From Sphaerisporangium sp. TRM90804 (GTDB taxonomy: Bacteria; Actinomycetota; Actinomycetes; Streptosporangiales; Streptosporangiaceae): DNA of 64,000 nucleotides. Made by a program: the position numbers and the translations under genes. Each line of letters opens with the position of its first letter. Within the stretch, counting starts at the first letter, position 1. This document shows positions 15,115-30,735 of the stretch, one piece after another. The notes below the pieces were generated by a model. It saw nothing but the letters and a program-made list of their open reading frames with translations, had not been told where the DNA came from and searched no databases. The DNA lies in the NCBI RefSeq assembly GCF_029846175.1, contig NZ_JARWAC010000010.1:186001-250000 (forward strand). Reading direction: 5' to 3'.

Positions 15115-16096
15115 TCAGTTGATGACGGCGAGGCGGGTGATGGCGCTCCACCCGGTGCCGATGAGGATCTTGGTGTTGATGTTGGGCGCGCCTGTGGTGC
15201 CCTTGTTGAGGTAGGCGTACAGGTCGCCGTCGGTCATCCGGCCGACCACGTCCTTCTTGCCGTCGTGGTCGATGTCGGCGATCGTGAGTCGGTTGATCCC
15301 GTTCCAGCTTGAGCCGATCAGCACCTTGGTCGAGATGTTGGGTGCGCCTGTGGTGCCCTTGTTGAGGTAGGCGTACAGGTTGCCGTCGCCGCCACGCGCG
15401 GTCACGTCGGTTTTGCCGTCGTTGTCGATGTCCACCACGCTGATCAGGCTCACCCCGTTCCAGCTGCTGCCGATCGTCTTGCGATTGGAGATGTTCGGCG
15501 TACCGGGTGTGCCGCTGTTCAGGTAGGCGTAGAAGGTGCCGTCAGTGCTGCGGCCGATCACGTCGACCTTGCCGTCGTTGTCCAGGTCGGCGGTGACGAC
15601 ATCGGTGACGGAGTTCCAGCCGGTGCCGATCGTGACGCGGGTGGAGATGTTCGGCGCGCCGGGGGTTCCGGAGTTCAGGTAGGCGTACAGGGTGCCGTCG
15701 CTGCTGCGGCCGATCACGTCGGTCTTGCCGTCGTTGTCGATGTCGGCCACGTTCACCCGTGTGATCGCGTTCCACCCGGTCCCGATCGTCTTACGGTTGG
15801 CGATGTTCGGCACACCCGGGGTTCCGGAGTTCAGGAACGCGTACAACGTGCCGTCGGTGTGCCGGCCGAGCACATCGCTCTTGCCGTCGTTGTCCACGTC
15901 GGCCACCGAGATCCGGGTGATCCCCGTCCACCCGGTGCCGAACTCCACCGGCCGCCCCGTCACACCTGGTGCGCCCGGCGTACCGGTCCCCAGATACGCT
16001 CGCAGCGTCCCGTCGGCCAGCGTGCCCACCAGGTCGACCCGGCCGTCCGCGTCGAAGTCCGCCGCCTCACCCGTCGCGTCCTCAGGCTCGGCAGGG
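15115..16096 (-). repeat. 982-bp direct repeat, copy 1 (VCBS propeller)
   Basis: It matches 16851-17832 base for base as far as I compared, at a constant offset of 1736. The copy starts exactly at the stop codon and ends inside the codons for PAEPED at the edge of the propeller. The flanks on both sides differ. Confidence 0.9.
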
Positions 16097-16722
16097 TTGC
16101 CCCTGACGTAGGGCAGGATGGTGTTGACGATGATCTGGGCGTCGGCGGCCTGCGGCTGGTAGCGCTCGGGGAACGCCGACACCTGCACCGTCTGGCACAC
16201 CTCGCCCACAGGCGCCGTCTTCCAGGCGTTGTTCGGATACTTGCTGATCATCTTGTCGAGGAACGCGTTGGTCGCCCAGACGGGGTTGAGCCGCTGGGCG
16301 GCGCTGCCCCACGAGGCCCGTTGCTGGAACAGGCCCAGGCTGTCGTGGTCGACCTCCTCGCTGATGTTCTGGATGCTGGTCTCCACGATCGTGGTCGTGA
16401 TCGCGATGACGGCCGCACGCGGGTCCAGCCCGCGGTCGTGCACCGCCTTGATCACCATTCGGGCGCACGACACCCGGTAAGCCGACATGTAGCCCCGCAT
16501 CTTGGCCTGCAGGGAGCTGTTGAGCTGGTTCGCCAGCTCGGTGTCGGTCGACGTCGTGCCCTGCGAGTCACAGGCCGCGAGCTGGTAGGCGGCTCGCACG
16601 TCCGACGCGGTCGTGGGACCCGGGTCCGGATCGGCCGTAGCAGGGGTGGCCGTGGCGGTCAGCGCGAGGGCGGTGACGGCGGTGGTGGCGAAGGCGAGGC
16701 GGAAGGCGATGTTCTTGGGCAT
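15115..16722 (-). CDS. Secreted lysozyme-like domain protein with six VCBS/FG-GAP repeats
   Basis: The ATG at 16722 follows AAAGGA and starts a signal peptide (MPKNIAFRLAFATTAVTALA, cleavage near ATPATA-D). Residues 40-200 resemble actinobacterial lysozyme-like domains: ITTTIVETSIQN with the candidate catalytic Glu, then DHDSLGLFQQRASWGSA. The C-terminal 325 residues are six repeats of about 52 residues, each with a DxDxDGxxD calcium-loop pattern (for example VADIDNDGKTDVIGRSSDGT) that builds a beta-propeller. The 535-residue protein is probably a secreted cell-wall hydrolase carrying a binding propeller. The propeller DNA recurs, apparently unchanged, in the next gene at 16851-17832. Confidence 0.82.
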   Translation of the reverse strand: MPKNIAFRLAFATTAVTALALTATATPATADPDPGPTTASDVRAAYQLAACDSQGTTSTDTELANQLNSSLQAKMRGYMSAYRVSCARMVIKAVHDRGLDPRAAVIAITTTIVETSIQNISEEVDHDSLGLFQQRASWGSAAQRLNPVWATNAFLDKMISKYPNNAWKTAPVGEVCQTVQVSAFPERYQPQAADAQIIVNTILPYVRGNPAEPEDATGEAADFDADGRVDLVGTLADGTLRAYLGTGTPGAPGVTGRPVEFGTGWTGITRISVADVDNDGKSDVLGRHTDGTLYAFLNSGTPGVPNIANRKTIGTGWNAITRVNVADIDNDGKTDVIGRSSDGTLYAYLNSGTPGAPNISTRVTIGTGWNSVTDVVTADLDNDGKVDVIGRSTDGTFYAYLNSGTPGTPNISNRKTIGSSWNGVSLISVVDIDNDGKTDVTARGGDGNLYAYLNKGTTGAPNISTKVLIGSSWNGINRLTIADIDHDGKKDVVGRMTDGDLYAYLNKGTTGAPNINTKILIGTGWSAITRLAVIN

Positions 16723-16850
16723 GATCGTTCCTTTGCGGGGGTGATGAAGTGGACGCCCGTCACCGGGCATGAAGGGGAGGACCCTTGGCGTGGGTCGCCA
16801 GGTGGGGATTCCTGGCCGCCGTGCCGGCACGGCGTTGATGAGCGGACGGG

Positions 16851-17832
16851 TCAGTTGATGACGGCGAGGCGGGTGATGGCGCTCCACCCGGTGCCGATGA
16901 GGATCTTGGTGTTGATGTTGGGCGCGCCTGTGGTGCCCTTGTTGAGGTAGGCGTACAGGTCGCCGTCGGTCATCCGGCCGACCACGTCCTTCTTGCCGTC
17001 GTGGTCGATGTCGGCGATCGTGAGTCGGTTGATCCCGTTCCAGCTTGAGCCGATCAGCACCTTGGTCGAGATGTTGGGTGCGCCTGTGGTGCCCTTGTTG
17101 AGGTAGGCGTACAGGTTGCCGTCGCCGCCACGCGCGGTCACGTCGGTTTTGCCGTCGTTGTCGATGTCCACCACGCTGATCAGGCTCACCCCGTTCCAGC
17201 TGCTGCCGATCGTCTTGCGATTGGAGATGTTCGGCGTACCGGGTGTGCCGCTGTTCAGGTAGGCGTAGAAGGTGCCGTCAGTGCTGCGGCCGATCACGTC
17301 GACCTTGCCGTCGTTGTCCAGGTCGGCGGTGACGACATCGGTGACGGAGTTCCAGCCGGTGCCGATCGTGACGCGGGTGGAGATGTTCGGCGCGCCGGGG
17401 GTTCCGGAGTTCAGGTAGGCGTACAGGGTGCCGTCGCTGCTGCGGCCGATCACGTCGGTCTTGCCGTCGTTGTCGATGTCGGCCACGTTCACCCGTGTGA
17501 TCGCGTTCCACCCGGTCCCGATCGTCTTACGGTTGGCGATGTTCGGCACACCCGGGGTTCCGGAGTTCAGGAACGCGTACAACGTGCCGTCGGTGTGCCG
17601 GCCGAGCACATCGCTCTTGCCGTCGTTGTCCACGTCGGCCACCGAGATCCGGGTGATCCCCGTCCACCCGGTGCCGAACTCCACCGGCCGCCCCGTCACA
17701 CCTGGTGCGCCCGGCGTACCGGTCCCCAGATACGCTCGCAGCGTCCCGTCGGCCAGCGTGCCCACCAGGTCGACCCGGCCGTCCGCGTCGAAGTCCGCCG
17801 CCTCACCCGTCGCGTCCTCAGGCTCGGCAGGG
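16851..17832 (-). repeat. 982-bp direct repeat, copy 2 (VCBS propeller)
   Basis: Second copy of 15115-16096. Even third codon positions agree in every stretch compared, which implies a recent duplication or ongoing gene conversion. Confidence 0.9.
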
Positions 17833-18458
17833 AGGTCAGGGGTGATCCCGACGGGGGCGGTGTAGCCCACGATGTCGACGTTCCCGCGGGAGTAGCTGTT
17901 CGCCTGGACCCGGTCGCCGCTGTTGCCCTCGATCGTGGTGACGGTGCTCGCGTTGGCCGACGTGACGATGCCGACATGGTCGATGTCGCCGCTCTGGTCC
18001 CAGTCGAAGACGACGGCGTCGCCGGGCAACGGGGTGTAGCCGCTGCTCCTGGTGTGCCAGGTGCCGTACTTCGTGCCGTAGTCCTTGAAGGACGCGGCCC
18101 ACCCCGTCAGCACGCCACCGCTCGTTTCGGCGATGTCCGCGTGAGTGACGCCCGCCGCCCTCCAGACGAACTTGGAGAAGTCGGCGCACCATTCGCTCTC
18201 CCGGAACTGGACACCGTCCCCGGTTCCACATCCGCTCGACGACTTCCACGTACGGAAGACGCCCGTGTAGTAGTTGCAGTTGCTCCCGGCGGGCCGCTCG
18301 ACGTTGCGCTGGCCGTCCGCCAGCTCCCGCTCCGCGACGGCGACGATGCTGGACCGCGTCGCCGCGGCGGCGGGCGTGCTCGTCATCGCCACCACCGCCG
18401 CGGCCGGCACCATCAGGGCGACGGAACTCGCGACCAGGCGGCCGAAGGACATTTTCAC
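16851..18458 (-). CDS. Secreted CHAP-domain amidase/endopeptidase with six VCBS/FG-GAP repeats
   Basis: The GTG at 18458 is chosen because GAGAGGAAG lies just upstream; ATG 18452 is two codons later. A signal peptide (SFGRLVASSVALMVPAAAVV) is followed by a CHAP domain with candidate catalytic Cys91 (ESEWCADFSKFVWRAAGV), the His of DIDHVGIV and the polar residue in EGNSGD. Six propeller repeats follow, identical to those of the neighbour at 15115. CHAP enzymes cut peptidoglycan peptides or amide bonds. The mature protein is probably exported to remodel the wall. Both genes encode 535 residues, and they are separated by 128 bp in the same direction. Confidence 0.87.
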   Translation of the reverse strand: MKMSFGRLVASSVALMVPAAAVVAMTSTPAAAATRSSIVAVAERELADGQRNVERPAGSNCNYYTGVFRTWKSSSGCGTGDGVQFRESEWCADFSKFVWRAAGVTHADIAETSGGVLTGWAASFKDYGTKYGTWHTRSSGYTPLPGDAVVFDWDQSGDIDHVGIVTSANASTVTTIEGNSGDRVQANSYSRGNVDIVGYTAPVGITPDLPAEPEDATGEAADFDADGRVDLVGTLADGTLRAYLGTGTPGAPGVTGRPVEFGTGWTGITRISVADVDNDGKSDVLGRHTDGTLYAFLNSGTPGVPNIANRKTIGTGWNAITRVNVADIDNDGKTDVIGRSSDGTLYAYLNSGTPGAPNISTRVTIGTGWNSVTDVVTADLDNDGKVDVIGRSTDGTFYAYLNSGTPGTPNISNRKTIGSSWNGVSLISVVDIDNDGKTDVTARGGDGNLYAYLNKGTTGAPNISTKVLIGSSWNGINRLTIADIDHDGKKDVVGRMTDGDLYAYLNKGTTGAPNINTKILIGTGWSAITRLAVIN

Positions 18459-18889
18459 GGCGCTTCCTCTCTCCAAGTGCTTACGGAGCGGAAGCCTGGT
18501 CGCGAGCTCTCCAAAAAGCCTCTAATGAAGTTAAAACCGCGGCGTACCGCGGCCGCCGGGCCGGGACGTCAGCCCGTGGCGGCCGCGGGGTGCGCGCCGC
18601 GTCCGGTGCCACGGTCACCGTCATCATGGGCGAGCTGGAGTCCTGTTCGGGCCGTACGGTGCTGGAGGTCCGCGCCGCCCGAGCCCAGGAACAGCAGAGG
18701 GCCGCCGGCCGCCGTGGTGGTCGAGGTGCGCGTGGTCCTGGCCGTCGTCCTCGGCGGGCCGCCGGCCGCCGTGGTACCGGTGACCCAATGTGATCAAGCT
18801 CCGCTTTGAGCCAGGGGGTCGCCGTATCCCAAGGTGGGGGACTCGCGGGCTTCCGGGGCATGATCGCCGTGGCCACACCTGTCCGGGCA
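18459..18889. other. Gene-free stretch
   Basis: The upstream region of the CHAP gene. No gene, repeat or terminator that I can support. Confidence 0.45.
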
Positions 18890-19243: not shown

Positions 19244-19361
19244 CTCCGTCGAGCCGCCCGGGGCAGGCGTGCACGCTTTCCCGGGTCAGTGGGAAGCCGC
19301 CCGGCAGGCCGGGTCCGGCACCGATACGGGCACCATGATCCACCACCGACAGAGGCCTGAG

Positions 19362-20006
19362 ATGAAAGACATACTGGACGAGCTGGCCGCCGTGCACCGG
19401 GCGATGGGCAACGGCAGAGTGCCCGCCGGCGAGGCGTACACCGTGGAGCTGCGGCGTCGATACGACGCGGAGATCGACGACGTCTGGGACGCCATCACCA
19501 AGCCCGAGCGGCTGCGCCGCTGGTTGAAGCCGGTCACCGGGGACCTTCGGCTTGGTGGAGAGTTCGAGTTGGCCGGTGGCGAGCACGGCGACATCCTCCG
19601 GTGCGAGCCGCCGCGTCTGCTCAAGGTGTCCTGGCTCTACGGACCGGACGCCGACGCCTGGCCCGGCACGAGCGAGGTGGAAGTGCGCCTGGCCCCGGGC
19701 CCGGCCGGCGACACGGAGCTCGAGCTGATCCACGCGGCGTTCGTCGGAGAGCCCTCCTTCCCCACCTACGGCCCAGGCGCCGGGGGCGTCGGGTGGGACC
19801 TGGCTCTGCTCGTCCTGGCCCGGCTCCTGGCCGATGGTGAGATCGCCGACCACGAGGAGTTCGAGAAGTCGCCCGAGGGACGCGAGTTCAGCCGGCGCAG
19901 CGCCGCAGCCTGGGGCCAGGCTCATCTGGCCGCCGGTGGCGAACCGGAGCACGTCGCGGCCGCGGTCGATGCCACCACCAAGTTCTACGCACCCGACCCG
20001 GCCTGA
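19362..20006 (+). CDS. SRPBCC (AHSA1-like) family protein
   Basis: The ATG at 19362 is preferred over the upstream in-frame ATG because AGAGG lies at the right distance. The 214-residue protein has the Bet v1-like helix-grip fold of the SRPBCC superfamily: VELRRRYDAEIDDVWDAITK, PERLRRWLKPVTGDLRLGGE and the C-terminal ELELIHAAFVGEP. Such proteins bind hydrophobic ligands; no catalytic residue can be assigned. The C-terminal 60 residues are helical and go beyond the usual domain. It was probably repressed by the neighbouring TetR, now inactivated. Confidence 0.8.
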   Translation: MKDILDELAAVHRAMGNGRVPAGEAYTVELRRRYDAEIDDVWDAITKPERLRRWLKPVTGDLRLGGEFELAGGEHGDILRCEPPRLLKVSWLYGPDADAWPGTSEVEVRLAPGPAGDTELELIHAAFVGEPSFPTYGPGAGGVGWDLALLVLARLLADGEIADHEEFEKSPEGREFSRRSAAAWGQAHLAAGGEPEHVAAAVDATTKFYAPDPA

Positions 20007-20131
20007 CATTCCTACCGCCGTGGCCTGCCCGGCGCCCTCGGCGCTCGCACCCACGATGGGATGACGAATCGCCAGGTGGAGGGCCGACCTCCACACTGCG
20101 TCCCACATAGAAGGAAAACGATGATGCGCCC

Positions 20132-20623
20132 ATGAGATACACCGTCTCCATCGAGATCGCCCTGCCGCGGGAGAAGACGGTCCAGCTGCTCGCCGACCCG
20201 GCACACCTGCCGAAATGGCTGCGGGGCCTGGTGCTGCACGAGCCGCTGAGTGGGGAGCACGGGCAGTTCGGCACCAAGTCACGGGTCGTGATGCAGGCGG
20301 GCCGGCGGAAGATCGAGTACAGCGAGACCATCACACGCCGGGAACCGGCGGACCTGCGCGAGATCCCGAAAACGAGCGTCGTCCACTTCGACCGCGAGAT
20401 CGTCGGCGAGGGCATATGGAGCGCCGCGCGCGACCGGCTGACCGAAGCCGGCCCGGAAACCACGCTCTGGGAGAGCGAGAACGAGTACCGGTTCAGTGGT
20501 TTTCTGCTGAAGCTGGTGGGACTTCTGATGCCCGGTGCCTTCCGCAAGCAGTCGCGACAGCACATGCAGGACTTCAAGGCGTTCGCCGAGCAGGGAAAGG
20601 ACGTCCGCGAAGCGACGGACTGA
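20132..20623 (+). CDS. SRPBCC family protein
   Basis: A 163-residue protein with the polyketide-cyclase/SRPBCC pattern: MRYTVSIEIALPREKTVQLL, ADPAHLPKWLRGL, and a C-terminal helix PGAFRKQSRQHMQDFKAFAE. Ligand and role are unknown. It lies 125 bp after the previous SRPBCC gene, facing the same way, and may be co-transcribed. The start is the ATG preceding RYTVSIE; an earlier ATG at 20121 runs straight into a stop. Confidence 0.75.
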   Translation: MRYTVSIEIALPREKTVQLLADPAHLPKWLRGLVLHEPLSGEHGQFGTKSRVVMQAGRRKIEYSETITRREPADLREIPKTSVVHFDREIVGEGIWSAARDRLTEAGPETTLWESENEYRFSGFLLKLVGLLMPGAFRKQSRQHMQDFKAFAEQGKDVREATD

Positions 20624-20687: not shown

Positions 20688-20950
20688 TCACCGCAAATGT
20701 CCGGCGAGCCCGGCGTCCGCGAGCCTGGCCCGGGCCTGCTTGATCGTCTGCGGTGCCAGGTCCACACCGGTCACCCGATGCCCGGCCGCGGCCGGCAACG
20801 CAGACAGTGAGCCGGTGCCGCAACCGACGTCCAGGATGTCGGCCGGATCCGCGGGCGCCCACGCTCGCAGCAGGCGATTCCAGGCGACACGGTCGTGACC
20901 GCGAGGGAGGCGCTGGTGCCCAGCCGCTCGTGGAAGCTCTGGACCAAGCC
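20688..20950 (-). pseudogene. SAM-dependent methyltransferase, N-terminal fragment
   Basis: The minus strand reads RGHDRVAWNRLLRAWAPA, then ILDVGCGTGSLSALPAAAGH, VTGVDLAPQTIKQARARLAD and AGLAGHLR with a stop. This is motif I and the adenosine-binding acidic loop of a class I methyltransferase. The protein stops after motif II, so the substrate-binding part is missing, and the first codons (SFHERLGTS) are in another frame. Confidence 0.6.
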
Positions 20951-20978
20951 GGTGTGGTCCTTCTCGCCGTGGAGAAGG

Positions 20979-21021
20979 GCACGCGCCCCCGGCTCGGTCT
21001 ATCGGAGCCGGGGGCGCGTGC
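20979..21021 (-). terminator. Strong hairpin terminator
   Basis: A 17-bp perfect stem GCACGCGCCCCCGGCTC/GAGCCGGGGGCGCGTGC with a 9-nt loop lies 12 bp beyond the stop codon of the minus-strand gene at 21033. Confidence 0.8.
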
Positions 21022-21032
21022 GTTTCACGTGG

Positions 21033-21251
21033 TCACGCGTACAGGAAGTAATAGCGGTACCGGCTCTCCCACTGGCATGAATAGTCGTCCCACCAGCCCT
21101 GGGCGGTGCCGTGGGTTCCGATGCGCTCGCACTCCGATCGGTCCTTGAAGACACCGGCCAGCCTGTCGGCGTGCGCCGGGGCGGCGCCGATCGTCAGCGA
21201 CACTCCCAGGATCATGACGGCCGAGACGAGAACAGCGCGTGCCTTTCGCAT
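21033..21251 (-). CDS. Small secreted Cys-containing protein
   Basis: ATG 21251 follows a consensus GGAGG. The 72-residue product has a Sec signal peptide (MRKARAVLVSAVMILGVSLT, cleavage near PAHA-D). The mature part of about 44 residues, RLAGVFKDRSECERIGTHGT then AQGWWDDYSCQWESRYRYYF, has two Cys that could form one disulfide and is rich in aromatic residues. Similar short exported proteins are widespread in actinomycetes; no function is known to me. Confidence 0.65.
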   Translation of the reverse strand: MRKARAVLVSAVMILGVSLTIGAAPAHADRLAGVFKDRSECERIGTHGTAQGWWDDYSCQWESRYRYYFLYA

Positions 21252-21795
21252 TCGTCCTCCTGTGACTGGGGAGATCATGAAGGTGGACATTATCACTCAC
21301 CGCGAGCCAGGAGGATTGTCATGTCCGAATCGGGCTCGGGGGAGATGAAACTTTCATCGACGTCGCCGTGAGTGGTACGTGTTTCGCGGGGTATTCACCG
21401 TCGGCGAAGACGGTGTCGCTTCCCGGGCGCCTTTCCCCTCGGGTTCCGGATGCTGCCTATTCCAGGCGCCGACGGCCGTGAAAGGCCTCGCAGGTGCGTA
21501 TCCCGCCGCCTGTGCATGCCATGGATGATCTGTGCCTTCTTCGCGCTATATGTTCTCTAACGTACTGTTTATGCCGCTCTTTCTGGTGGTCGAAACGAGA
21601 TGAAGAAACCTTTGACCATAGCCACTTATGTGTCATATCGTCTCCCCGCCCATATCGATGTAAGTCGCGACACTCGAACAGGACGTTGTTCTCGCAGGCG
21701 CTACGGTCGGCGTGCCGATCAGGGTTGCCCGGCAGGGGAGAAGACACGGACGGTCACCGGGGAAGCGGCGATCATCCGAAGACCGGAGTCGCCCC
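21252..21795. other. Gene-free stretch between divergent secreted-protein genes
   Basis: AT-richer than average. TTGACC near 21611 could be a -35 element, but no good -10 follows at proper spacing. I see no supported gene. Confidence 0.4.
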
Positions 21796-23112
21796 ATGCA
21801 AGTTCGAATCCGTATGGCCATGATCGTCGGCATGGCGGTGACCATGCTGGCCGCCGTCGGCATGTCGGCCGCCGCGCCGCCGGCCCATGCCGCGGTGATC
21901 ACCGACATCGCCTACGCCCCCGCGCAACCGGCCGGCAGCAGGGGACATCTGCTGGACCTCTACCTGCCGTCCACCGGAATCACGCCCCGGCCGCTGATCA
22001 TCTGGCACACCGGCTCGGCGTGGACGAGCGACGACGGCAAGGCCGGCGCGGACGCGGTCGCGGCCGTCTTCAACCCCCTGGGGTTCGCCGTGGCCGGCGT
22101 CAGCGTCCGGTCCAGCGCCCAGGGGATCTTCCCGGCCCAGGTGCACGACATCAAGGCGGCCATCCGCTGGCTGCGTGCCAACGCCGCCACGTACCAGCTC
22201 GACCCCGCCCGCTTCGCGATCATGGGCGACTCCTCGGGCGGCTGGCTGACGGAGATGGCCACCCTGTCCGGCGGGGTGGCGGCGCTGGAGGGCACCGTCG
22301 GCACGACCGGCGTCTCCAGCGCCGTGCAGGTGGGGATCGCCTTCTTCAGCCCGACCGACTTCCTGCAGATGAACGCGCAGAACCTGCCGAGCGGCGGGCT
22401 CGACCACAACTCTCCCGCCTCGCCCGAGTCCCTCCTGGTCGGCTGCCCGATCCAGACCTGCCCCGCCACGGTGGCCCAGGCCAACCCGATGACCTACGTG
22501 GACGCCAACGACCCGCCGCTGATGTTCCTGCACGGCCAGGCCGACTTCCTGGTGCCGCACGGGCAGAGTGTGCTGCTCTACAACAGGATCAAGGCTCAGT
22601 GCGGCGACGCCACCTTCGTCTCGGTGCCCGGCGCGGATCACATGATGCCCCAGATCATGGACCCCGCCCAGTACGGTGCGCAGACCGTCCGCACCACCAC
22701 CGACTGCGGCGAGACCGTCGGCACCGGCACGTTGAACCCGACCTGGGCCAACTTCACGACCTTCCTGCGCGCCGGGCTCAAGATGGGCAACTCCTGCGAG
22801 GTCACCTACGCCACCGGCGCCTGGAACGGCGCTTTTAACGGCAGCGCGACCATCAGGAACACGGGCACGACCCCCGTCGACGACTGGACGCTGACGTGGA
22901 CCTGGCCGGGCAACCAGCAGGTCACGAGCGCCTGGAACGCCACGGTGACCCAGGCCGGCACCCAGGTGACCGCCCGTGACGCCGGCCACAACTCCTATAT
23001 CGGCCCCGGCTCCAGCCAGAGCTTCGGCTTCTCGGCGACCGCCACGGGGACGAACGGTATTCCGGCCCAGTTCAAACTCAACAACATCGTCTGCACGAGA
23101 GTGCCCGCCTGA
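21796..23112 (+). CDS. Secreted alpha/beta-hydrolase (esterase-like) with C-terminal CBM2
   Basis: ATG 21796 begins a signal peptide (MQVRIRMAMIVGMAVTMLAA, cleavage near PPAHA-A). Residues 33-330 are an alpha/beta-hydrolase of the BD-FAE/carboxylesterase type with nucleophile elbow GDSSGG (Ser146), an Asp region LMFLHGQADFLVPHGQ and the catalytic-His candidate PGADHMMP. Residues 335-438 form a family 2 cellulose/chitin-binding module bounded by two Cys (NSCEVTY and NNIVC), with aligned Trp residues (GAWNG, TWTWPGNQ, SAWNATV). It is probably a polysaccharide-associated esterase acting outside the cell. The upstream in-frame codons lack a signal sequence. Confidence 0.85.
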   Translation: MQVRIRMAMIVGMAVTMLAAVGMSAAAPPAHAAVITDIAYAPAQPAGSRGHLLDLYLPSTGITPRPLIIWHTGSAWTSDDGKAGADAVAAVFNPLGFAVAGVSVRSSAQGIFPAQVHDIKAAIRWLRANAATYQLDPARFAIMGDSSGGWLTEMATLSGGVAALEGTVGTTGVSSAVQVGIAFFSPTDFLQMNAQNLPSGGLDHNSPASPESLLVGCPIQTCPATVAQANPMTYVDANDPPLMFLHGQADFLVPHGQSVLLYNRIKAQCGDATFVSVPGADHMMPQIMDPAQYGAQTVRTTTDCGETVGTGTLNPTWANFTTFLRAGLKMGNSCEVTYATGAWNGAFNGSATIRNTGTTPVDDWTLTWTWPGNQQVTSAWNATVTQAGTQVTARDAGHNSYIGPGSSQSFGFSATATGTNGIPAQFKLNNIVCTRVPA

Positions 23113-23468
23113 GACGCGACGCGCCGGGCCTGAGCGGAATGGCGACGGCCCGGCGCCGTTCTCACGTCTCCTGACGCCGAATCATCACCTCGGAGAAACC
23201 GTGACGTGAACTGAAAGCGCACGCGCGGAGCGTGTTCGTTCTGTCTGAATGCGATCACGGAAGGTCACCGACCGGATCGCTCGCGTTTATATTGCTTTCT
23301 CCGATGGGCCGCCCCTATTGTTGCCCCTGGCGGCTCGCCGGCCCATTTCCGTTGCTTTCATCGCCCGGCCGGGGGTCGCCTGATGTCCCGGCGCCCGAAT
23401 GAATCGGATGAGGCGCCTTCCGCTGCCCGAAGGCCGTTGTCCGGGATCGTCGATTAGTAAGGGGACGT
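23113..23468. other. Gene-free region upstream of the PKS operon
   Basis: 356 bp that must carry the promoter of the polyketide operon. I see no convincing -35/-10 pair or palindrome; the ribosome site AAGGGGA precedes the GTG at 23469. Confidence 0.4.
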
Positions 23469-24521
23469 GTGCGTACATCCAACATGTTCGTCAGGAGTCT
23501 CGGCGTTTATGTGCCCGACAGTGTGAGCGTCGAGCAGGCGGTCCGTGAGGGCTGGTACCCGGCCGAGGAGGCCGAGAGGTTCCAGCAGATCGGCGCGGCG
23601 GTGGCCGGCGACATGCCCGCCCCCGAGATGGCGCGGCTCGCGCTCCTGGACGCGTACGACCGCTGGGGTGAGTCCTCCCCGCGGGACCTCGACCTTCTGC
23701 TCTACCCGTCGGTCTGGCACCAGGGCCCGAACGGCTGGCAGCCCCAGCACTACCTGCAGATGCACCTGCTCGGCGGAGACGTGCCGGCGTTCGAGATCCG
23801 GAGCGGCTGCGTAGGGATGATCAGCTCGCTCGAACTGGCGGCGAGCTACCTGCAGGCCGACGCGGAGCGGGAGACGGCCGTGGTCGTCTCCTCGGACAAC
23901 CACGGCACCCCGCTGGTGGACCGCTGGCGGATGACCCCCGGGGCGTTGATCGGCGACGCCGCGGCCGCGCTCGTGCTCGGCAAGGGGTACGGCATGGCCG
24001 AGCTCCTGTCGGTGAACGTGACGGTGATCCCGGAGGCCGACGCGGTCAACGACGGCGCCTACCCCCTGTTCCCGCCGGACGCCACCGTCGGCAGAGGGCT
24101 GAGCTTCGCGGACCGGCACGAGGAGTTCCGCCGGAAGCTGCTCAAGGCGCAGGGGACCGGGATCCACCTGACGATCCAGAAGACGATGATGCAGCAGGTC
24201 GAACGGACCCTGGACGAGGCCGGGATCGGACTCGACGACATCACGCGGGTGGCGTTGCCGCACGGCCGCCGCGAGGACCTGGACGGGCAGATGTCCTGGC
24301 TGGGCATCGAGGAGGATCAGACGACCTGGGACTACGGCAGGCGTGTGGGCCACTGCGGCGCGGTGGACCAGTTCATCGCCTTCGAGCATCTCATCGCGAC
24401 CGGCGGGCTCGTGGCCGGCGATCACCTGCTGATGGTCGGATTCGGCTCCGGCACGTCCGTCGCCGCGGCGGCGTTCAGGGTGCTGTCCACCTCTCCCGTC
24501 ACCAGAGGGGCACGCGCATGA
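23469..24521 (+). CDS. KAS III-like acyltransferase (CerJ/ChlB3-type)
   Basis: The GTG at 23469 follows AAGGGGA. The 350-residue thiolase-fold protein resembles ketoacyl-ACP synthase III. Cys114 sits in the active-site loop (RSGCVGMISSLELAA). A His is kept in RVALPHGRRED, and GHCGAVD replaces the usual GNTSAAS, giving a His-x4-Asp arrangement like that of KAS III-type acyltransferases which transfer aromatic or malonyl groups instead of condensing. In chlorothricin-type pathways such a protein moves the finished aromatic acid from the PKS to a free ACP. It overlaps the ACP gene by 4 bp (ATGA), is paralogous to the protein at 24789, and shares the motif GWYPAEEAE with it. Confidence 0.82.
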   Translation: MRTSNMFVRSLGVYVPDSVSVEQAVREGWYPAEEAERFQQIGAAVAGDMPAPEMARLALLDAYDRWGESSPRDLDLLLYPSVWHQGPNGWQPQHYLQMHLLGGDVPAFEIRSGCVGMISSLELAASYLQADAERETAVVVSSDNHGTPLVDRWRMTPGALIGDAAAALVLGKGYGMAELLSVNVTVIPEADAVNDGAYPLFPPDATVGRGLSFADRHEEFRRKLLKAQGTGIHLTIQKTMMQQVERTLDEAGIGLDDITRVALPHGRREDLDGQMSWLGIEEDQTTWDYGRRVGHCGAVDQFIAFEHLIATGGLVAGDHLLMVGFGSGTSVAAAAFRVLSTSPVTRGARA

Positions 24522-24769
24522 CCGAGCTCGCGCAGAGGCTGGTCGACTTCATCCAGGAGAACCTCGTCGAGGACGGCGACGACGTCAAGGTCGACGAGAC
24601 GACCCCGCTCCTGGTGTCGGGCCTCCTTGACTCCCTGCGGACGGCGCGGCTGCTGAACTTCCTCCGGAAGGACGTCGGCGTCAAGATCCCCGCCGCGAAG
24701 CTCGACCCCGGGAACTTCCGCGACGTCCTGACCATCGTGGCGATGGTCAGAGAACTCGAATCCGTCTAG
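24518..24769 (+). CDS. Discrete acyl carrier protein
   Basis: An 83-residue acidic helical protein with the phosphopantetheine site GLLDSLRTARLL; Ser39 is the attachment residue (L-D-S-L instead of the common D-S-L with Gly before it). It lies between two KAS III-like genes in a tightly packed operon (ATGA overlap upstream, 19 bp to the next start). In the ChlB1/B2/B3/B6-type system the free ACP carries the aromatic acyl group between the iterative PKS and the final acyltransferase, which is the most probable role here. Confidence 0.88.
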   Translation: MTELAQRLVDFIQENLVEDGDDVKVDETTPLLVSGLLDSLRTARLLNFLRKDVGVKIPAAKLDPGNFRDVLTIVAMVRELESV

Positions 24770-24788
24770 CCGGGGCGAGGGCAGAGTC

Positions 24789-25832
24789 ATGCGGTACGCG
24801 GACACGTACATCAGCGGAGTGGGAGCCTTCCTCCCCAGGAACGTCGTCAGCGTCGAGAAGGCCGTCGCCAAGGGCTGGTATCCGGCCGAAGAGGCGGAGC
24901 TGCACAACCTGGCCGGGGCGGCGGTGGCCGGTGACGTACCGGCTCCGGAGATGGCCCTGCACGCGGCGCGGAGCGCGCTCAAGCGCAGCGGACGGGCGCC
25001 GGGCGAGCTGAATCTGCTCCTGTACGCCTCGACGTGGCACCAGGGACCGGACGGCTGGCCGCCGCACGCCTACCTGCAGCGGCATCTCGCCGGCGGGGAC
25101 GTCCTGGCCACCGAGATCCGGCAGGGCTGCAACGGGATGTTCATCGCCCTGGAACTCGCGGCCGGTCACCTGGGCGCCGATCCCGGACGGCGGGCCGCCC
25201 TGCTGGTCGCCGCCGACAACTACGGCACCCCGCTGATGGACCGGTGGCGGATGGGCCCCGGCTACATCGGCGGGGACGCCGCCAGCGCGCTCGTGCTCAC
25301 CAGGGAGACGGGGTTCGCGCGCCTGATGTCGGTCTGCACGACGACGGTGGTCGAGGCCGAGGAACTGCACCGGGGCAGCGAGCCCCTGTTCCCCCCGGGC
25401 GTCACGGTCGGGCGCCGGATGAGCTTCGCGGCCAGGAACGAGCAGTTCCGGCAGCAGGTCATGCCCAGGGGCGAGGCCACGGCGGCGCTGTTCACCATCC
25501 AGCGGGCGCTGATGGAGGTCGTCGAGCGCGCGCTGAGCGAGAGCGGGATCGAGGCCCGCGCCCTCGCCCGGGTGGCGTTCATGAACTACTCCGAAGAGAT
25601 CGTCGAACAGCGGTGCATGGCCATGCTCGACCTGCCCATGTCCCGCTCGACCTGGGCCTACGGCCGCACCATCGGCCACTGCGGGGCCAGCGACCAGGTC
25701 CTTTCCCTCGACCACCTGCTCATGACCGGGCAACTGGGTCCCGGCGACCACATGCTGATGCTCGGCACCGGGCCGGGAGTGACCGTCTCCAGCGCCGTGA
25801 TCAAGATCATCGACAATCCTCAGTGGGCCTGA
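24789..25832 (+). CDS. KAS III-like acyltransferase, second copy (ChlB6-type)
   Basis: The 347-residue paralogue of the gene at 23469 has Cys114 (RQGCNGMFIALELAA) and GHCGASD at the C-terminal active-site loop. Where the first protein has His in LPHGR, this one has Asn (AFMNYSEE), so the two should differ in mechanism or acceptor. Such a second KAS III-like enzyme typically moves the aryl group from the carrier protein onto the final alcohol or sugar acceptor, but no acceptor biosynthesis gene is present in this window. The ATG lies behind GGGGCGAGGG, 19 bp after the ACP gene, and the PKS gene follows by 21 bp. Confidence 0.82.
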   Translation: MRYADTYISGVGAFLPRNVVSVEKAVAKGWYPAEEAELHNLAGAAVAGDVPAPEMALHAARSALKRSGRAPGELNLLLYASTWHQGPDGWPPHAYLQRHLAGGDVLATEIRQGCNGMFIALELAAGHLGADPGRRAALLVAADNYGTPLMDRWRMGPGYIGGDAASALVLTRETGFARLMSVCTTTVVEAEELHRGSEPLFPPGVTVGRRMSFAARNEQFRQQVMPRGEATAALFTIQRALMEVVERALSESGIEARALARVAFMNYSEEIVEQRCMAMLDLPMSRSTWAYGRTIGHCGASDQVLSLDHLLMTGQLGPGDHMLMLGTGPGVTVSSAVIKIIDNPQWA

Positions 25833-25853
25833 ACCGAAGGGAAACGAACGCAG

Positions 25854-28800
25854 ATGGTCGACAGTCCGCGCGGAGTCCGGGTGGAACCAGTGGCGGTGAT
25901 CGGGGTCGGATGCCGCCTTCCCGGTGACGTCCGCTCACCGGACGAGTTCTGGGACCTGCTGCGCGCCGGCCGGAACACGACCCGGCCGCTGCCCGCCGAA
26001 CGCTGGCGCCAGTACGAGAACCGGAGCCCGGAACACGCCGCCGCGCTGCGCGACGCCGTGCGTCACGGCAGCTTCCTGAGCGACATCGAGGGCTTCGACG
26101 CGGAGTTCTTCGGCCTGTCGCCCCGCGAGGCCGAGCTGATGGACCCGCAGCAGCGGATCCTGATGGAGACCACGTGGGAGGCCCTGGAGAACGCCGGCCT
26201 GCCGCCGCACGAGCTGGCCGGCACCGACGCCGGGGTGTTCATGGGGGTCTGCACCGCCGACTACGGAGGCAGCCTCCTGGAGGACCTGCCCCAGATCGAG
26301 GCGTGGACCGGGATCGGGGCGGCGACCTGCGCCGTCGCCAACCGCATCTCCTACTCCCTGGACCTGCGCGGCCCCAGCATGGCGATCGACACGGCCTGCT
26401 CGGCGTCGCTGGTCGCGCTGCACCTGGCCGCGCAGAGCCTGCGGCTCGGCGAGAGCGACGTCGCCCTCGCCGGCGGCGTCAACCTGCTGGTCACCCCGGG
26501 CCAGACCCTCACGCTCGGCACGGCCGGAGCCCTGGCCCCCGACGGCCGGTCCAAGTCGTTCGACGCGTCGGCCGACGGCTACGGACGCGGCGAGGGCTGC
26601 GGCGTGGTCGTGCTCAAGCGGCTGTCCGACGCGCGGCGTGACGGCGACCGGATCCTCGCGCTCGTCATCGGCAGCGCCGTGAACCAGGACGGGCACACCA
26701 ACGGCATCATGGCCCCGTGCGGCGAGGCCCAGGCACACGTGATGGCACGGGCCTGCCGGCAGGCGGGCGTCGCGCCGTCCACCGTCGACTACATCGAGGC
26801 GCACGGCACCGGCACCCGGCTCGGCGACCCGCTTGAGGCGGGGGCACTCTCCTCCGTGTACGGCGCGCGGCGACCCGCCGGCGACCCGTGCCTCATCGGC
26901 TCGGTCAAGTCCAACATCGGTCACCTCGAAGGCGCCGCCGGCATCGCCGGCGTCATCAAGGCGGTGCTCGCCCTCGACCGCGGTGAGATCCCTCCGACCG
27001 TGCTGACCACCCTCAACCCGGCCGTCCCGTGGGAGACCTCGGGCCTGCGCGTGGTGACCGGCCGATCGGCCTGGCCGGAGCGCGACCACCCCCGCAGGGC
27101 GGGCGTCTCCAGCTTCGGGTACGGCGGCACGGTCGCGCACATCGTGCTCGAGCAGGCTCCCGCGGCCCCGGAGACGCCCCGGGGCCGGGGGACGGGGGAG
27201 CGGCTGTTCCCGCTGTCGGCCGCGTCGGAGCGGGCTCTGCGGCAGTACGCGGGCACGCTCGCCGATCACCTCGGCGACGGGCTGGACCTGGCGTCGGCGG
27301 GGCACACGCTGGCGCTCCGGCGCACCCATCTGGCCCGTCGCGCCGTCGTGGTCGCGGCGGACGAGGCCGAGCTGGCGGCCGGCCTGCGCAGGCTCGCGCA
27401 GGACGTGCCGGCCGAGGCCGTCCTCACCGGTGACGTGCTGCCCGAGCCCGGCCCCGGACCGGTCTGGGTCTTCTCCGGGCAGGGCTGCCAGTGGCGCGGG
27501 ATGGGGCGGGAGCTGCTCGCCGTGCCGGAGTTCGCGTCCCTGGTCGACGAGGTGGAGCCGATCTTCGTGGAGGAGATCGGCTTCAGCCCCCGGCAGGTCC
27601 TGGCCGACGGCGATCTCGACACCATCGACCGCGTGCAGACCATGATCTTCGTGATGCAGCTGGGCCTCGCCCGGCTCTGGAACGCCTACGGGGTCGCTCC
27701 GAAGGCCGTCATCGGCCACTCCGTCGGCGAGATCGCGGCGGCGGTGACGGCCGGCGCGATGACCGTCGCCGACGGCGCCCGCCTGATCTGCCGCCGCTCC
27801 CGGCTGCTGCGCCAGGCCGAGGGCAAGGGAGCCATGGTGATGGTCGACATGTCCTTCGAGGAGGCGGCGCAGAGGCTGGCCGGCCGTACCGACCTCGTGG
27901 CGGCGATCTCGTCGGCACCCGGCTCGACCGTGCTGTCCGGCGACGTCGCCGCGGTCGAGGAGGTGGTGAACGAGTGGCCGGTCGAGGGCATCGTGGTGCG
28001 GCGGGTGGCGTCGGACGTCGCCTTCCACAGCCCCCACATGGACCCCCTGGCCGTCGAACTGGCCGCCGCCACCGCCGATCTCTCGTTCGGGGCGCCTCGC
28101 ATCCCCATGTACACGACCGCGCTGGCGGACCCCCGGTCGACGCCCGTCCTGGACGGCGCCTACTGGGCGGCGAACCTCCGGGCCCCCGTACGGCTGGTCG
28201 CGGCGACGACGGCCGCGGCGCAGGACGGCCACCGCGTGTTCCTGGAGATCTCCCCGCACCCCGTGGTAGCGCACTCGGTGACCGAGACGCTCTCGGAGAA
28301 CGGGTTCGAGGACGTGTTCGTCGGCACGTCGCTGCGCCGGAACCAGCCGGAGCCGCGGACCTTCCTCGTCGCGCTGGGCACGGCGCACTGTCACGGCGTC
28401 GACGTGGACTGGAGCCGGCTGCAGCCGTCCGGCGGCCTGGCCGATCTGCCGCCGTACGCCTGGCAGCACCGCCGCCACTGGCGCGAGGTGTACACCGAGG
28501 ACGGCAACCGAGGACACGACGTGGGCTCCCACACCCTGCTCGGAGCCGGGACCGGCCTGGCGGGCAGCCGGACCCGGGTGTGGCGGACCAGCCTGGAGGA
28601 CGCCAACCGGCCCTACCCGGGCAGCCACACCCTCAACGGGGTCGAGATCGTGCCCGCCGCCGTGCTGGTCAACACGTTCCTGCGGGCGGCCGAGGAGGAG
28701 GACGTCACGCTCACCGACGTGGAGATGTCGCATCCGCTGATGACCGCGCAACGCAGGCAGATCCAGGTCGTGCACGAACCTCCGGCGGTACGGCTCGCGG

Positions 28801-29657
28801 CCCGTACACCGGCGGGGCCCGGCGAGCCGGAACCCGCCTGGCTGGTGCACGTCACCGCGGACGTGGCCGCTCCGGGCCAGGTCAAGCCCGACGTGCTGCC
28901 GGACGCCGGCGCTCTGGCCCCGATCGATCCCGGGTTCGTGCACAAGCGGCTGGCCGCCGTCGGCGTGCCCTCGACGGGCTTCGACTGGACGATCGAGACG
29001 CTGCTGGGCGCGGACGGCGAGCTGCGGGCCACGGTCCGCACCGCGGACCCGGAGAGCTGGGCGCCGGCGCTGGACGCGGTGATGTCCATAGCCCCCTGCG
29101 TGTTCCCCGGCGATCCGGTGCTGCGCATGGTCGTGCACATCGACGAGGTGGTGCTGACCGGCTCCCCGCCCTCGACGGTGATCATCGACGCGGCCGTGGA
29201 CCCGGCCGTCGACGACACCGTCCAGGCTCTCCTGGCCGACGTGGACGGCAGGGTGGTGGGACACCTCACCGGACTCCGCTACCCGGTGATCGACGCGCCG
29301 GCCCCGGCCGAGGAGGATCTGCGGGGGCCCGCGGAGTCGTTCGCCGGCGTGGCGCCCGAGGAGCTGCGCGAGCGCGTCCTGCCCGAGATCCGCGCGGAGA
29401 TCGCGGCCGTGATGAGGCTGGCCCCCGAGGACCTGGCGATCCGGCGTCCCCTCGTCGAGCAAGGGCTGGACTCGGTGATGACCGTGATGGTCCGGCGGCG
29501 CCTGGAGAAGCGCTTCGGCCGCCGTCTCCCCGCGACCCTGCTGTGGCAGCAGCCCACCATCTCCGCCATCGCGGACCACCTGGCGGGGCTTCTCGCGACT
29601 CCGAGGCCGGACGCGGCGGTGACCGCTCCCGAGAGCATGCCCGCGATCGGGGGCTGA
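25854..29657 (+). CDS. Iterative type I polyketide synthase, KS-AT-DH-ACP (orsellinic-acid-synthase-like)
   Basis: A single-module protein of 1267 residues. KS (about 8-430): active-site Cys182 in DTACSASL, with EAHGTGTRLGDP and KSNIGHLEGA. AT (about 535-840): start VWVFSGQGCQW, Ser623 in GHSVGE, and VAFHSPHMD, whose AFH fits malonyl-CoA. DH/thioester-hydrolase-type hot-dog (about 880-1165): HTLNGVEIVP with His925, and an Asp in PALDAVMSIAP. ACP (about 1180-1255): GLDSVMT with Ser1207. No ketoreductase, enoylreductase or thioesterase is present. This layout is that of AviM/CalO5-type orsellinic acid synthases, so a tetraketide cyclised to an aromatic acid is expected. The absent thioesterase agrees with off-loading by the KAS III-like partners. 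Confidence 0.9.
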   Translation: MVDSPRGVRVEPVAVIGVGCRLPGDVRSPDEFWDLLRAGRNTTRPLPAERWRQYENRSPEHAAALRDAVRHGSFLSDIEGFDAEFFGLSPREAELMDPQQRILMETTWEALENAGLPPHELAGTDAGVFMGVCTADYGGSLLEDLPQIEAWTGIGAATCAVANRISYSLDLRGPSMAIDTACSASLVALHLAAQSLRLGESDVALAGGVNLLVTPGQTLTLGTAGALAPDGRSKSFDASADGYGRGEGCGVVVLKRLSDARRDGDRILALVIGSAVNQDGHTNGIMAPCGEAQAHVMARACRQAGVAPSTVDYIEAHGTGTRLGDPLEAGALSSVYGARRPAGDPCLIGSVKSNIGHLEGAAGIAGVIKAVLALDRGEIPPTVLTTLNPAVPWETSGLRVVTGRSAWPERDHPRRAGVSSFGYGGTVAHIVLEQAPAAPETPRGRGTGERLFPLSAASERALRQYAGTLADHLGDGLDLASAGHTLALRRTHLARRAVVVAADEAELAAGLRRLAQDVPAEAVLTGDVLPEPGPGPVWVFSGQGCQWRGMGRELLAVPEFASLVDEVEPIFVEEIGFSPRQVLADGDLDTIDRVQTMIFVMQLGLARLWNAYGVAPKAVIGHSVGEIAAAVTAGAMTVADGARLICRRSRLLRQAEGKGAMVMVDMSFEEAAQRLAGRTDLVAAISSAPGSTVLSGDVAAVEEVVNEWPVEGIVVRRVASDVAFHSPHMDPLAVELAAATADLSFGAPRIPMYTTALADPRSTPVLDGAYWAANLRAPVRLVAATTAAAQDGHRVFLEISPHPVVAHSVTETLSENGFEDVFVGTSLRRNQPEPRTFLVALGTAHCHGVDVDWSRLQPSGGLADLPPYAWQHRRHWREVYTEDGNRGHDVGSHTLLGAGTGLAGSRTRVWRTSLEDANRPYPGSHTLNGVEIVPAAVLVNTFLRAAEEEDVTLTDVEMSHPLMTAQRRQIQVVHEPPAVRLAARTPAGPGEPEPAWLVHVTADVAAPGQVKPDVLPDAGALAPIDPGFVHKRLAAVGVPSTGFDWTIETLLGADGELRATVRTADPESWAPALDAVMSIAPCVFPGDPVLRMVVHIDEVVLTGSPPSTVIIDAAVDPAVDDTVQALLADVDGRVVGHLTGLRYPVIDAPAPAEEDLRGPAESFAGVAPEELRERVLPEIRAEIAAVMRLAPEDLAIRRPLVEQGLDSVMTVMVRRRLEKRFGRRLPATLLWQQPTISAIADHLAGLLATPRPDAAVTAPESMPAIGG

Positions 29658-29665
29658 GGCCGCCG

Positions 29666-29703
29666 CCCGGGCGGCCCGGGGGTGATCCCCCGGGCCGCCC
29701 GGG
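29666..29703 (+). terminator. Very strong terminator of the PKS operon
   Basis: A perfect 17-bp stem CCCGGGCGGCCCGGGGG with its complement, around the loop TGAT, begins 8 bp after the PKS stop codon. Confidence 0.85.
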
Positions 29704-29839
29704 TCGCGTCCGGCCGGAGCCGGCCGCACCGCCCGCCGCGTGCCGGACGAACGGCTGTCCGAGTCGCTCGCCGAGATGCGGACGTTCATCGGGACCGCGA
29801 TCCAGCTGCGCCGGAGATGCGGAAAGCGTCCAGCTACGA

Positions 29840-29874
29840 CGGTTTTGTGCCTCGTTTACCTGCGATTTTGTACC
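29840..29874 (+). promoter_or_regulatory. Direct repeat upstream of XRE regulator (candidate operator)
   Basis: CGGTTTTGTGCC (29840-29851) and CGATTTTGTACC (29863-29874) agree at 10 of 12 positions and lie 9-44 bp upstream of the regulator's ATG. Their T-rich runs are unusual at this GC content. They may be the regulator's own binding sites; this is inference. Confidence 0.4.
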
Positions 29875-29883
29875 CTGCTTCGC

Positions 29884-30735
29884 ATGAAGAGCCCACTTGG
29901 TGAGTTCCTTCGCGCTCGGCGTCAGGTCACGACCATCGAGCAGGTGGGGCTCGTGGGATCCCGCGACCGGCGGACGCCGGGACTTCGCCGGGAGGAGGTG
30001 GCCGTGCTGGCGGGGGTCAGCGTCGACTACTACACCCGGTTGGAGCAGGGCAGGGATCATCACCCCTCTGGGCAGGTGCTCGACGCGCTGGCGCGGGTCT
30101 TCCAGCTCGGCCCCGAGGCCACCGAGCACCTTCACGAACTCGCCCACCCCCGGTCGTCCAGGCGCGGGCGGTTCGGGGACGGCTACCAGGTCTGCCCGAG
30201 CGTGCTGCGACTGGTGGAGGGCTGCGACCACGTGGTGGCCTTCCTGATCAACCACCGGATGGACGTGCTGGTCAGGAACCCGCTGGCGCTGGCTCACTTC
30301 GACGGGCTGGACCACAACGACAACGTGCTGCGGATGGTCTTCCTCGATCCGGCGGCACGCGAGTTCTACGTGGACTGGGAGCGAGAGGCCAGGGCCTTCG
30401 TCGCCCACCTGCGCGCCGTGGTGGAGGGAAGCGGCAGGGACCCGTTCGCCTGCGAACTCGTCAAGGACCTCTCGCGCGAGAGTGATGACTTCCGCCGGTT
30501 CTGGGCGATGCACGAAGTGCAGCTCCGCGCTCACATGACCATTCGCTACCGCAACCCCGACGTCGGCGAGCTCACACTGCACTATGAGACGCTCCCCGTC
30601 AGCAGTTCCCCGGGCCGGTACATCGTCATAGGGCAGGCCGAGCCCGGCAGCGCCTCCGAACAGGCTCTGACCCGGCTCGCGGGCACCCGCCACCAGACCA
30701 GCGGCGTCGGGACGTGCTCACCGGGCCGGGGGTGA
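29884..30735 (+). CDS. XRE-family (MmyB-like) transcriptional regulator
   Basis: The 283-residue protein has an N-terminal helix-turn-helix (LRREEVAVLAGVSVDYYTRL, then EQGRDHHPSGQVLDALARVF) and a C-terminal MmyB-like ligand-binding domain (YQVCPSVLRLVEGCDHVVAF, and NPDVGELTLHYETLPV). Members often bind fatty-acyl-like ligands and act as local regulators. It lies 226 bp after the PKS, beyond a strong terminator, so it has its own promoter; it may or may not regulate the PKS operon. ATG 29884 is chosen because the HTH begins there; upstream codons have no family match. Confidence 0.85.
   Translation: MKSPLGEFLRARRQVTTIEQVGLVGSRDRRTPGLRREEVAVLAGVSVDYYTRLEQGRDHHPSGQVLDALARVFQLGPEATEHLHELAHPRSSRRGRFGDGYQVCPSVLRLVEGCDHVVAFLINHRMDVLVRNPLALAHFDGLDHNDNVLRMVFLDPAAREFYVDWEREARAFVAHLRAVVEGSGRDPFACELVKDLSRESDDFRRFWAMHEVQLRAHMTIRYRNPDVGELTLHYETLPVSSSPGRYIVIGQAEPGSASEQALTRLAGTRHQTSGVGTCSPGRG

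Follow-up and report, generated by a model that had tools for sequence, protein, structure and literature searches.

An orsellinate-type aryl-acylation cassette of Sphaerisporangium belongs to a recurrent six-gene unit with two secreted partners, a CBM2 esterase and a miniprotein

In the 64,000-nucleotide stretch of Sphaerisporangium sp. TRM90804 analysed here (contig NZ_JARWAC010000010.1, positions 186,001 to 250,000; hereafter the window), four genes encode two β-ketoacyl synthase III (KAS III)-like acyltransferases, KASa and KASb, a free acyl carrier protein (ACP) and an iterative type I polyketide synthase (PKS). We found that this cassette belongs to a six-gene unit, which also comprises a secreted esterase with a family 2 carbohydrate-binding module (CBM2) and a secreted miniprotein. 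We propose, with a probability of about 0.5, that the unit is a self-contained locus for a small orsellinate ester, of which we infer the product, the roles of the two KAS, the acceptor, the export and the substrate of the esterase; the enzyme classes, the catalytic residues, the six-gene unit and the orsellinate type of the PKS are what the sequence itself supports.

A scan of genome contigs with KASb yielded 78 loci, 24 of which (L007-L029 and L052) show 86-94% identity, the rest being at 64% or less. These orthologous loci occur in Streptosporangium, Nonomuraea, Acrocarpospora, Herbidospora and Microbispora, and in one organism named [Actinomadura] parvosata; together with the window they form the 25 Streptosporangiaceae loci referred to below. 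First, all 24 loci hold the four genes of the cassette as well as the CBM2 esterase gene upstream, so that the four-gene set noticed in an earlier sequence-only reading of the window is not a chance arrangement. Second, a clustering of the open reading frames (ORFs) of the 25 loci, independent of the list of window genes, added the opposite-strand miniprotein gene, which was recovered in 22 loci by ORF picking and in all 25 by tblastn. Third, full-length matches of all six genes are present in the 25 loci, except for the PKS (22/25), which stops at a contig end in L009, lies in two frames in L029 and aligned over 79% in L027. Fourth, the gene families common to more than three loci beyond the six genes are confined to Herbidospora, the flanks being otherwise variable. 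Since the esterase and the miniprotein are kept in 25/25 loci while the flanks change, the cassette is part of a six-gene unit, and the earlier description of it as stand-alone has to be given up. The median dN/dS values of the six genes, calculated against the window, range from 0.18 to 0.57, with single pairs reaching 1.36 (the short ACP).

Two other neighbours were considered and discarded: the MmyB-type regulator located directly downstream (29740-30735), as a unit member, has no counterpart in the 24 orthologous loci, and the upstream SRPBCC/AHSA1 genes (19269-20623), as candidate pathway cyclases, occur in 0/24 of them. Separately, the PKS split in L029 (and G240:C27, a contig of equal length) corresponds to a pseudogene or an assembly error, the other five genes being intact.

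The partners of the unit travel together. Among 250 family genomes, the esterase orthologue (at least 703 bits), KASb (at least 86% identity) and the cassette-adjacent miniprotein are present in the same 23 genomes, and adjacent in each, knowing that these 23 overlap with, and are not to be added to, the 24 named loci, and that related genomes are non-independent trials. No full esterase orthologue was found in the family genomes outside these 23; the next-best esterases, in G154 (444 bits, 57-61% identity) and G025 (302 bits, 52%), belong to cassette-free genomes, and their neighbourhoods, inspected as a clue to the acceptor, hold no KAS, PKS or ACP match. Among 296 genomes drawn across the class, only G000, G042 and G025 gave esterase matches reaching 1e-80. 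The recurrence of the cassette in related genomes, which the sequence-only reading had proposed to look for, was thus observed, though always with the esterase and the miniprotein and never alone.

This distribution is patchy (23/250 family genomes, 2/11 congeneric ones), as would be expected if the esterase and the miniprotein were hitchhikers that came to lie near the cassette by chance after interspecies transfer. We regard this as improbable, because the immediate neighbours beyond the six genes are not kept, while both genes are present at all 25 loci, with their frames and the esterase motifs intact and the promoter conserved. A comparison with the congeneric genomes gave no clean empty site: the downstream neighbours were matched in G001, G002 and G010, and the upstream ones as fragments only.

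The same data bear on the acceptor. The Pfam scan of the window ORFs between 15115 and 38254 found no glycosyltransferase, sugar, macrolide or non-ribosomal peptide synthetase gene, in agreement with what had been noticed before, and no scaffold or sugar biosynthesis gene is common to the 25 loci within about 10 kb, some loci being cut by contig ends; in particular, no scaffold cluster recurs upstream of the cassette. To our knowledge, all nameable characterised two-KAS systems of the ChlB kind decorate a larger scaffold. This holds for chlorothricin (PMC9573744). Moreover, the genome of TRM90804 is rich in PKS loci, 66 matches to the cassette PKS being found there. The cassette might then decorate a sugar, macrolide or peptide scaffold made by another cluster of the genome, the esterase being a general plant-polymer esterase linked to it by chance. 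We consider this unlikely, given that no scaffold gene is shared by 25 loci of five genera and that the 23 genomes (of 250) holding the esterase are precisely those holding the cassette, the two being side by side in each. As five genera carry this small unit in differing surroundings, a scaffold cluster elsewhere in the genome appears less likely than an acceptor that is ubiquitous or made by the unit. The choice offered earlier, between an acceptor made elsewhere and a minimal aryl product, omitted the conserved extracellular component.

Turning to the product, Pfam recognised in the PKS the ketosynthase (KS), acyltransferase (AT), DH_N and PP-binding domains, and matched neither a ketoreductase (KR) nor a thioesterase (TE). 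Hence, the previously announced KS-AT-DH-ACP architecture stands for the lack of a KR but not for the dehydratase (DH): the region so called has one strong PDB match, the product-template (PT) domain of AviM (7VWK, 272 bits), to which it is 57% identical over 252 columns, with both H949 and D1104 of AviM kept. According to PMC9135731, AviM serves the avilamycin pathway and makes orsellinic acid, H949 of its PT domain being essential and D1104 not. The PT identity to AviM is 51-57% in the cassette group, 37-51% in 28 KR-bearing relatives and 97% in L036 (Streptomyces curacoi). The His-Asp dyad is kept in the 23 cassette PKS compared (the window and 22 others with an ORF of at least 1200 residues), but also in the 28 KR-bearing relatives, so that the argument for orsellinate rests on the missing KR and on the tree. 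The PKS lengths fall in two classes, of about 1250-1390 and about 1640-1820 residues, the KR of the longer class being deduced from the additional residues that precede the ACP. A quick tree built from 64 rows places the cassette PKS and the AviM-like PKS of L036 in a KR-less group of 36 (SH-aLRT 97); nearest to the cassette PKS are the sister cassettes described below. The PKS thus lies inside the orsellinate group, as the sequence-only reading had anticipated, and from its lack of a KR and its place in this clade the likely product is orsellinic acid.

As regards the two KAS, which are 49% identical to each other, their top PDB match is ChlB3 (7EQI), with 343 bits for KASa and 472 bits for KASb (ACYLTRANSFERASES). 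Both possess the Cys-His-Asp triad, conserved in 24/24 orthologues of each, and corresponding to C113, H296 and D301 of ChlB3 (PMC9573744). The ChlB-like make-up of the cassette is thereby borne out. KASb retains most of the pocket residues named for ChlB3, whereas several of these positions are changed in KASa (N194, H217, H233, G266, D270 and S327). From this difference, we tentatively suggest that KASb loads the free ACP and that KASa serves the acceptor. The LxDS serine motif of the ACP is present in 25/25 loci. The genome of TRM90804 also carries a second adjacent pair of KAS III-like genes (C9:296284-298538, L087), only about 30% identical to KASb.

The cassette resembles the ChlB1/ChlB2/ChlB3/ChlB6 set of chlorothricin in combining an iterative aryl PKS, a free ACP and two KAS III-like acyltransferases. 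It differs from it in two respects. First, ChlB1 makes 6-methylsalicylate (PMC9573744), whereas the window PKS has no KR. Second, the ChlB set sits in a spirotetronate cluster, whereas the window unit has no scaffold genes and holds a secreted CBM2 esterase and a miniprotein. Similarly, the KS-AT-PT-ACP organisation without KR is that of the orsellinic acid synthases AviM (avilamycin) and CalO5, to which the unit adds the relay of two KAS and an ACP, along with extracellular partners. More generally, scaffold or sugar genes, present in the aryl-acylation clusters of chlorothricin, avilamycin and calicheamicin, are missing from the window unit.

Closer relatives were found in nine Streptosporangiaceae loci (L031, L158-L165), the sister cassettes, where a KASa'-KASb'-PKS set shows about 54-67% identity to the KAS pair and the PKS. 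In a tree with six of these loci, their two KAS groups branch as sisters to those of the cassette (SH-aLRT 99 and 94). Judging the families from sequence, the sister cassettes carry a P450, an FAD monooxygenase and a PhyH-like dioxygenase, and, unlike the window unit, they lack any nearby match to the free ACP, the esterase or the miniprotein. Since they hold the PKS and the two KAS without these three genes, the comparison indicates that the PKS and two-KAS pairing is old and that the free ACP, the esterase and the miniprotein mark the lineage of the window. Three genomes (G201, G250 and G240; L159-L161) harbour both types of cassette.

Two published genes are probably cassette PKS genes, a match that we infer from their accounts: pks-3 of Herbidospora, a single-module KS/AT?/DH/ACP PKS of 1258-1259 residues with its product given as '?' (PMC4599437), and cluster 17 of Nonomuraea gerenzanensis, an iterative PKS predicted to make 6-methylsalicylate (6-MSA), 3,6-dimethylsalicylate (3,6-DMSA) or orsellinate (PMC5431353). 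The accessible portions of these accounts make no mention of the six-gene unit or of a link to an esterase. The complete genome of N. gerenzanensis, which comes in addition to the 25 loci, contains all six genes and the promoter; a search of a plasmid collection returned one close record, NZ_LT559118.1 (11.85 Mb) of this species, which is labelled plasmid and is evidently the chromosome. As no description of the unit or of an orsellinate-esterase link was found in the titles and abstracts that our searches of open-access literature brought up, the constant pairing of an orsellinate cassette with a secreted esterase appears not to have been described previously.

The esterase belongs with the BD-FAE/CBM2 enzymes (bifunctional feruloyl/acetyl xylan esterases) by its two domains and its catalytic motifs, and its best PDB matches include acetyl xylan esterases. 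It differs from the other members in being fixed to an orsellinate-acylation cassette and in forming an orthologue group of its own in 23/250 genomes. It has a putative Sec-type signal peptide, judged by eye, and its Ser, Asp and His motifs are present in 25/25 loci. When its CBM2 was aligned to 1exg, two of the three aromatic positions, which we take to be the binding positions, were kept, and the third is a His, so that cellulose binding may be altered. The structure prediction of the esterase was poor (mean pLDDT 51) and was not used.

The miniprotein gene is divergent to the esterase gene and adjoins the cassette unit in 25/25 loci. Its product has a signal peptide and a mature part of about 44 residues with two invariant Cys, predicted with a pLDDT mostly above 90 to form a compact beta-alpha-beta-beta fold. 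It corresponds to no Pfam family. Foldseek retrieved nothing significant for its model (best E 0.25); designed miniproteins, a SPOR domain and CutA were weakly similar to it (Z about 5). Being an invariant neighbour with conserved Tyr residues, the miniprotein might itself be the acylated acceptor, the product then being an aryl-acylated secreted peptide. This is extremely unlikely, as its signal peptide is of the Sec type (by eye), the unit has no peptide-modifying enzyme, and weaker paralogues occur elsewhere without the cassette, in unrelated contexts. Nothing beyond the peptide was found to be common to these contexts, except among three closely similar loci.

Upstream of the esterase, the block TTTGACC..CATATCGTC, conserved in 25/25 loci and also in N. 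gerenzanensis, contains a predicted sigma70-like promoter, the sole promoter-like match in the 20900-30000 region (mean of shuffled sequences, 0.2). A search of the genome for a regulon sharing this promoter matched only the esterase site itself. The motif CATATCG occurs twice, 17 bases apart, in the conserved block (21634-21657) and may be an operator. Rfam gave no match between 20800 and 30000.

Taking these elements together, the favoured orsellinate-ester locus would operate as follows. The cytosolic PKS would make a tetraketide from acetyl-CoA and malonyl-CoA, which the PT domain would close between C2 and C7, and, in the absence of a TE, the orsellinyl group would remain bound to the ACP of the PKS. 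One of the two KAS, probably KASb, would load the free ACP with the aryl group by a Cys-His-Asp ping-pong mechanism, and the other, probably KASa with its changed pocket, would transfer this group to an oxygen acceptor. Given that the six genes recur in five genera without common scaffold genes, this acceptor would most likely be a ubiquitous metabolite, or orsellinate itself to form a depside. The aryl ester would be exported and would probably be the extracellular substrate of the secreted CBM2 esterase, which would release orsellinate or activate the compound, with the miniprotein as an extracellular accessory.

A simpler product can be envisioned, knowing that the unit holds no other small-molecule gene, that ChlB3 hydrolyses the N-acetylcysteamine thioester of 6-methylsalicylate (6MSA-SNAC) without acceptor (PMC9573744) and that tannases resemble the esterase weakly (NCBIfam, E about 7e-6, well short of the cutoff). 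The KAS pair would then liberate orsellinic acid or a simple depside, and the esterase would only turn over the depside, which is a special case of the orsellinate-ester locus with orsellinate as the acceptor. We find it distinctly unlikely, in that two acyltransferases and a free ACP exceed what the release of a free acid needs, AviM alone already giving orsellinic acid (PMC9135731).

By analogy, a two-stage system can also be imagined. In mycolate transfer, Pks13 is followed by the secreted antigen 85. Likewise, the cytosolic relay of PKS and KAS might load a small carrier with orsellinate, and the secreted CBM2 hydrolase might transfer the aryl group from it to an extracellular polysaccharide, bacterial or plant, with the miniprotein as a cofactor; this is a long shot, which, if true, would be a bacterial extracellular route to arylated glycans.

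Several points weigh against the orsellinate-ester locus as we propose it. KASb is also near the KAS adjoining the AviM-like PKS of L036 (64% identity), so that the roles of KASa and KASb may be reversed. The PP-binding score of the cassette ACP (20.4 bits) is just below the Pfam cutoff (20.8). The KR-less group of 36 comprises 35 KR-less rows and one long-branched KR-bearing row, and branch support was estimated by the quick SH-aLRT procedure. The unit has no conserved exporter gene across the 25 loci. The esterase stop and the KASa start are separated by 356 bp, which makes co-transcription putative. Lastly, the esterase family also degrades the plant cell wall and the cassette-bearing genomes hold many CBM2 proteins, so that the substrate of the esterase need not be the product of the cassette.

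The features of the unit are collected in Table 1. The four cassette ORFs lie on the same strand, with a coding-type GC content at third codon positions (GC3) of 0.93-0.95.

Table 1. Features of the six-gene unit, with positions in the window
Feature	Position	Strand	Remarks
Secreted miniprotein	21033..21251	-	72 aa from MRK start, or 87 aa if read from a GTG further upstream (21296)
Predicted sigma70-like promoter before the esterase gene	21612..21641	+	TTGACC-18-TATCGT
Secreted BD-FAE-family alpha/beta-hydrolase (esterase), C-terminal CBM2	21796..23112	+	438 aa; Pfam BD-FAE 3.6e-53, CBM_2 1.3e-25
CBM2 module of the esterase	22795..23094	+	top PDB match 1exg
KASa, KAS III-like acyltransferase, diverged pocket	23469..24521	+	350 aa; ACP_syn_III (Pfam), triad C114-H295-D300
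Free acyl carrier protein	24518..24769	+	83 aa; PP-binding (Pfam), LxDS serine motif
KASb, KAS III-like acyltransferase, ChlB3-like pocket	24789..25832	+	347 aa; ACP_syn_III (Pfam), triad C114-H297-D302
Iterative type I PKS, KS-AT-PT-ACP, without KR, orsellinate synthase type	25854..29657	+	1267 aa
AviM-type product-template (PT) domain of the PKS	28527..29285	+	start labelled PKS_DH_N by Pfam; PDB 7VWK match

Other genes in and around the window were noticed. A KS-AT type PKS stretch, 45% identical to the cassette PKS, lies about 4.7 kb past the right end of the window (C3:254665-257271). Within the window, the minus strand encodes a 1341-residue adenylation-peptidyl carrier protein (A-PCP) with hexapeptide repeats at its C-terminus (47967-51992), which we take to resemble the epsilon-poly-L-lysine synthase type, and two FG-GAP-repeat proteins in tandem, of which one carries a CHAP domain (15115-18476); fragments similar to this stretch occur elsewhere in the genus.

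Together, these data show that what seemed an orphan aryl-acylation cassette is part of a defined, recurrent six-gene unit with an extracellular arm, compact enough to be cloned whole. They indicate where the missing acceptor may be sought, namely among ubiquitous metabolites or extracellular glycans, or in orsellinate itself, and they provide a testable case of a carbohydrate-binding secreted esterase as part of a polyketide pathway.

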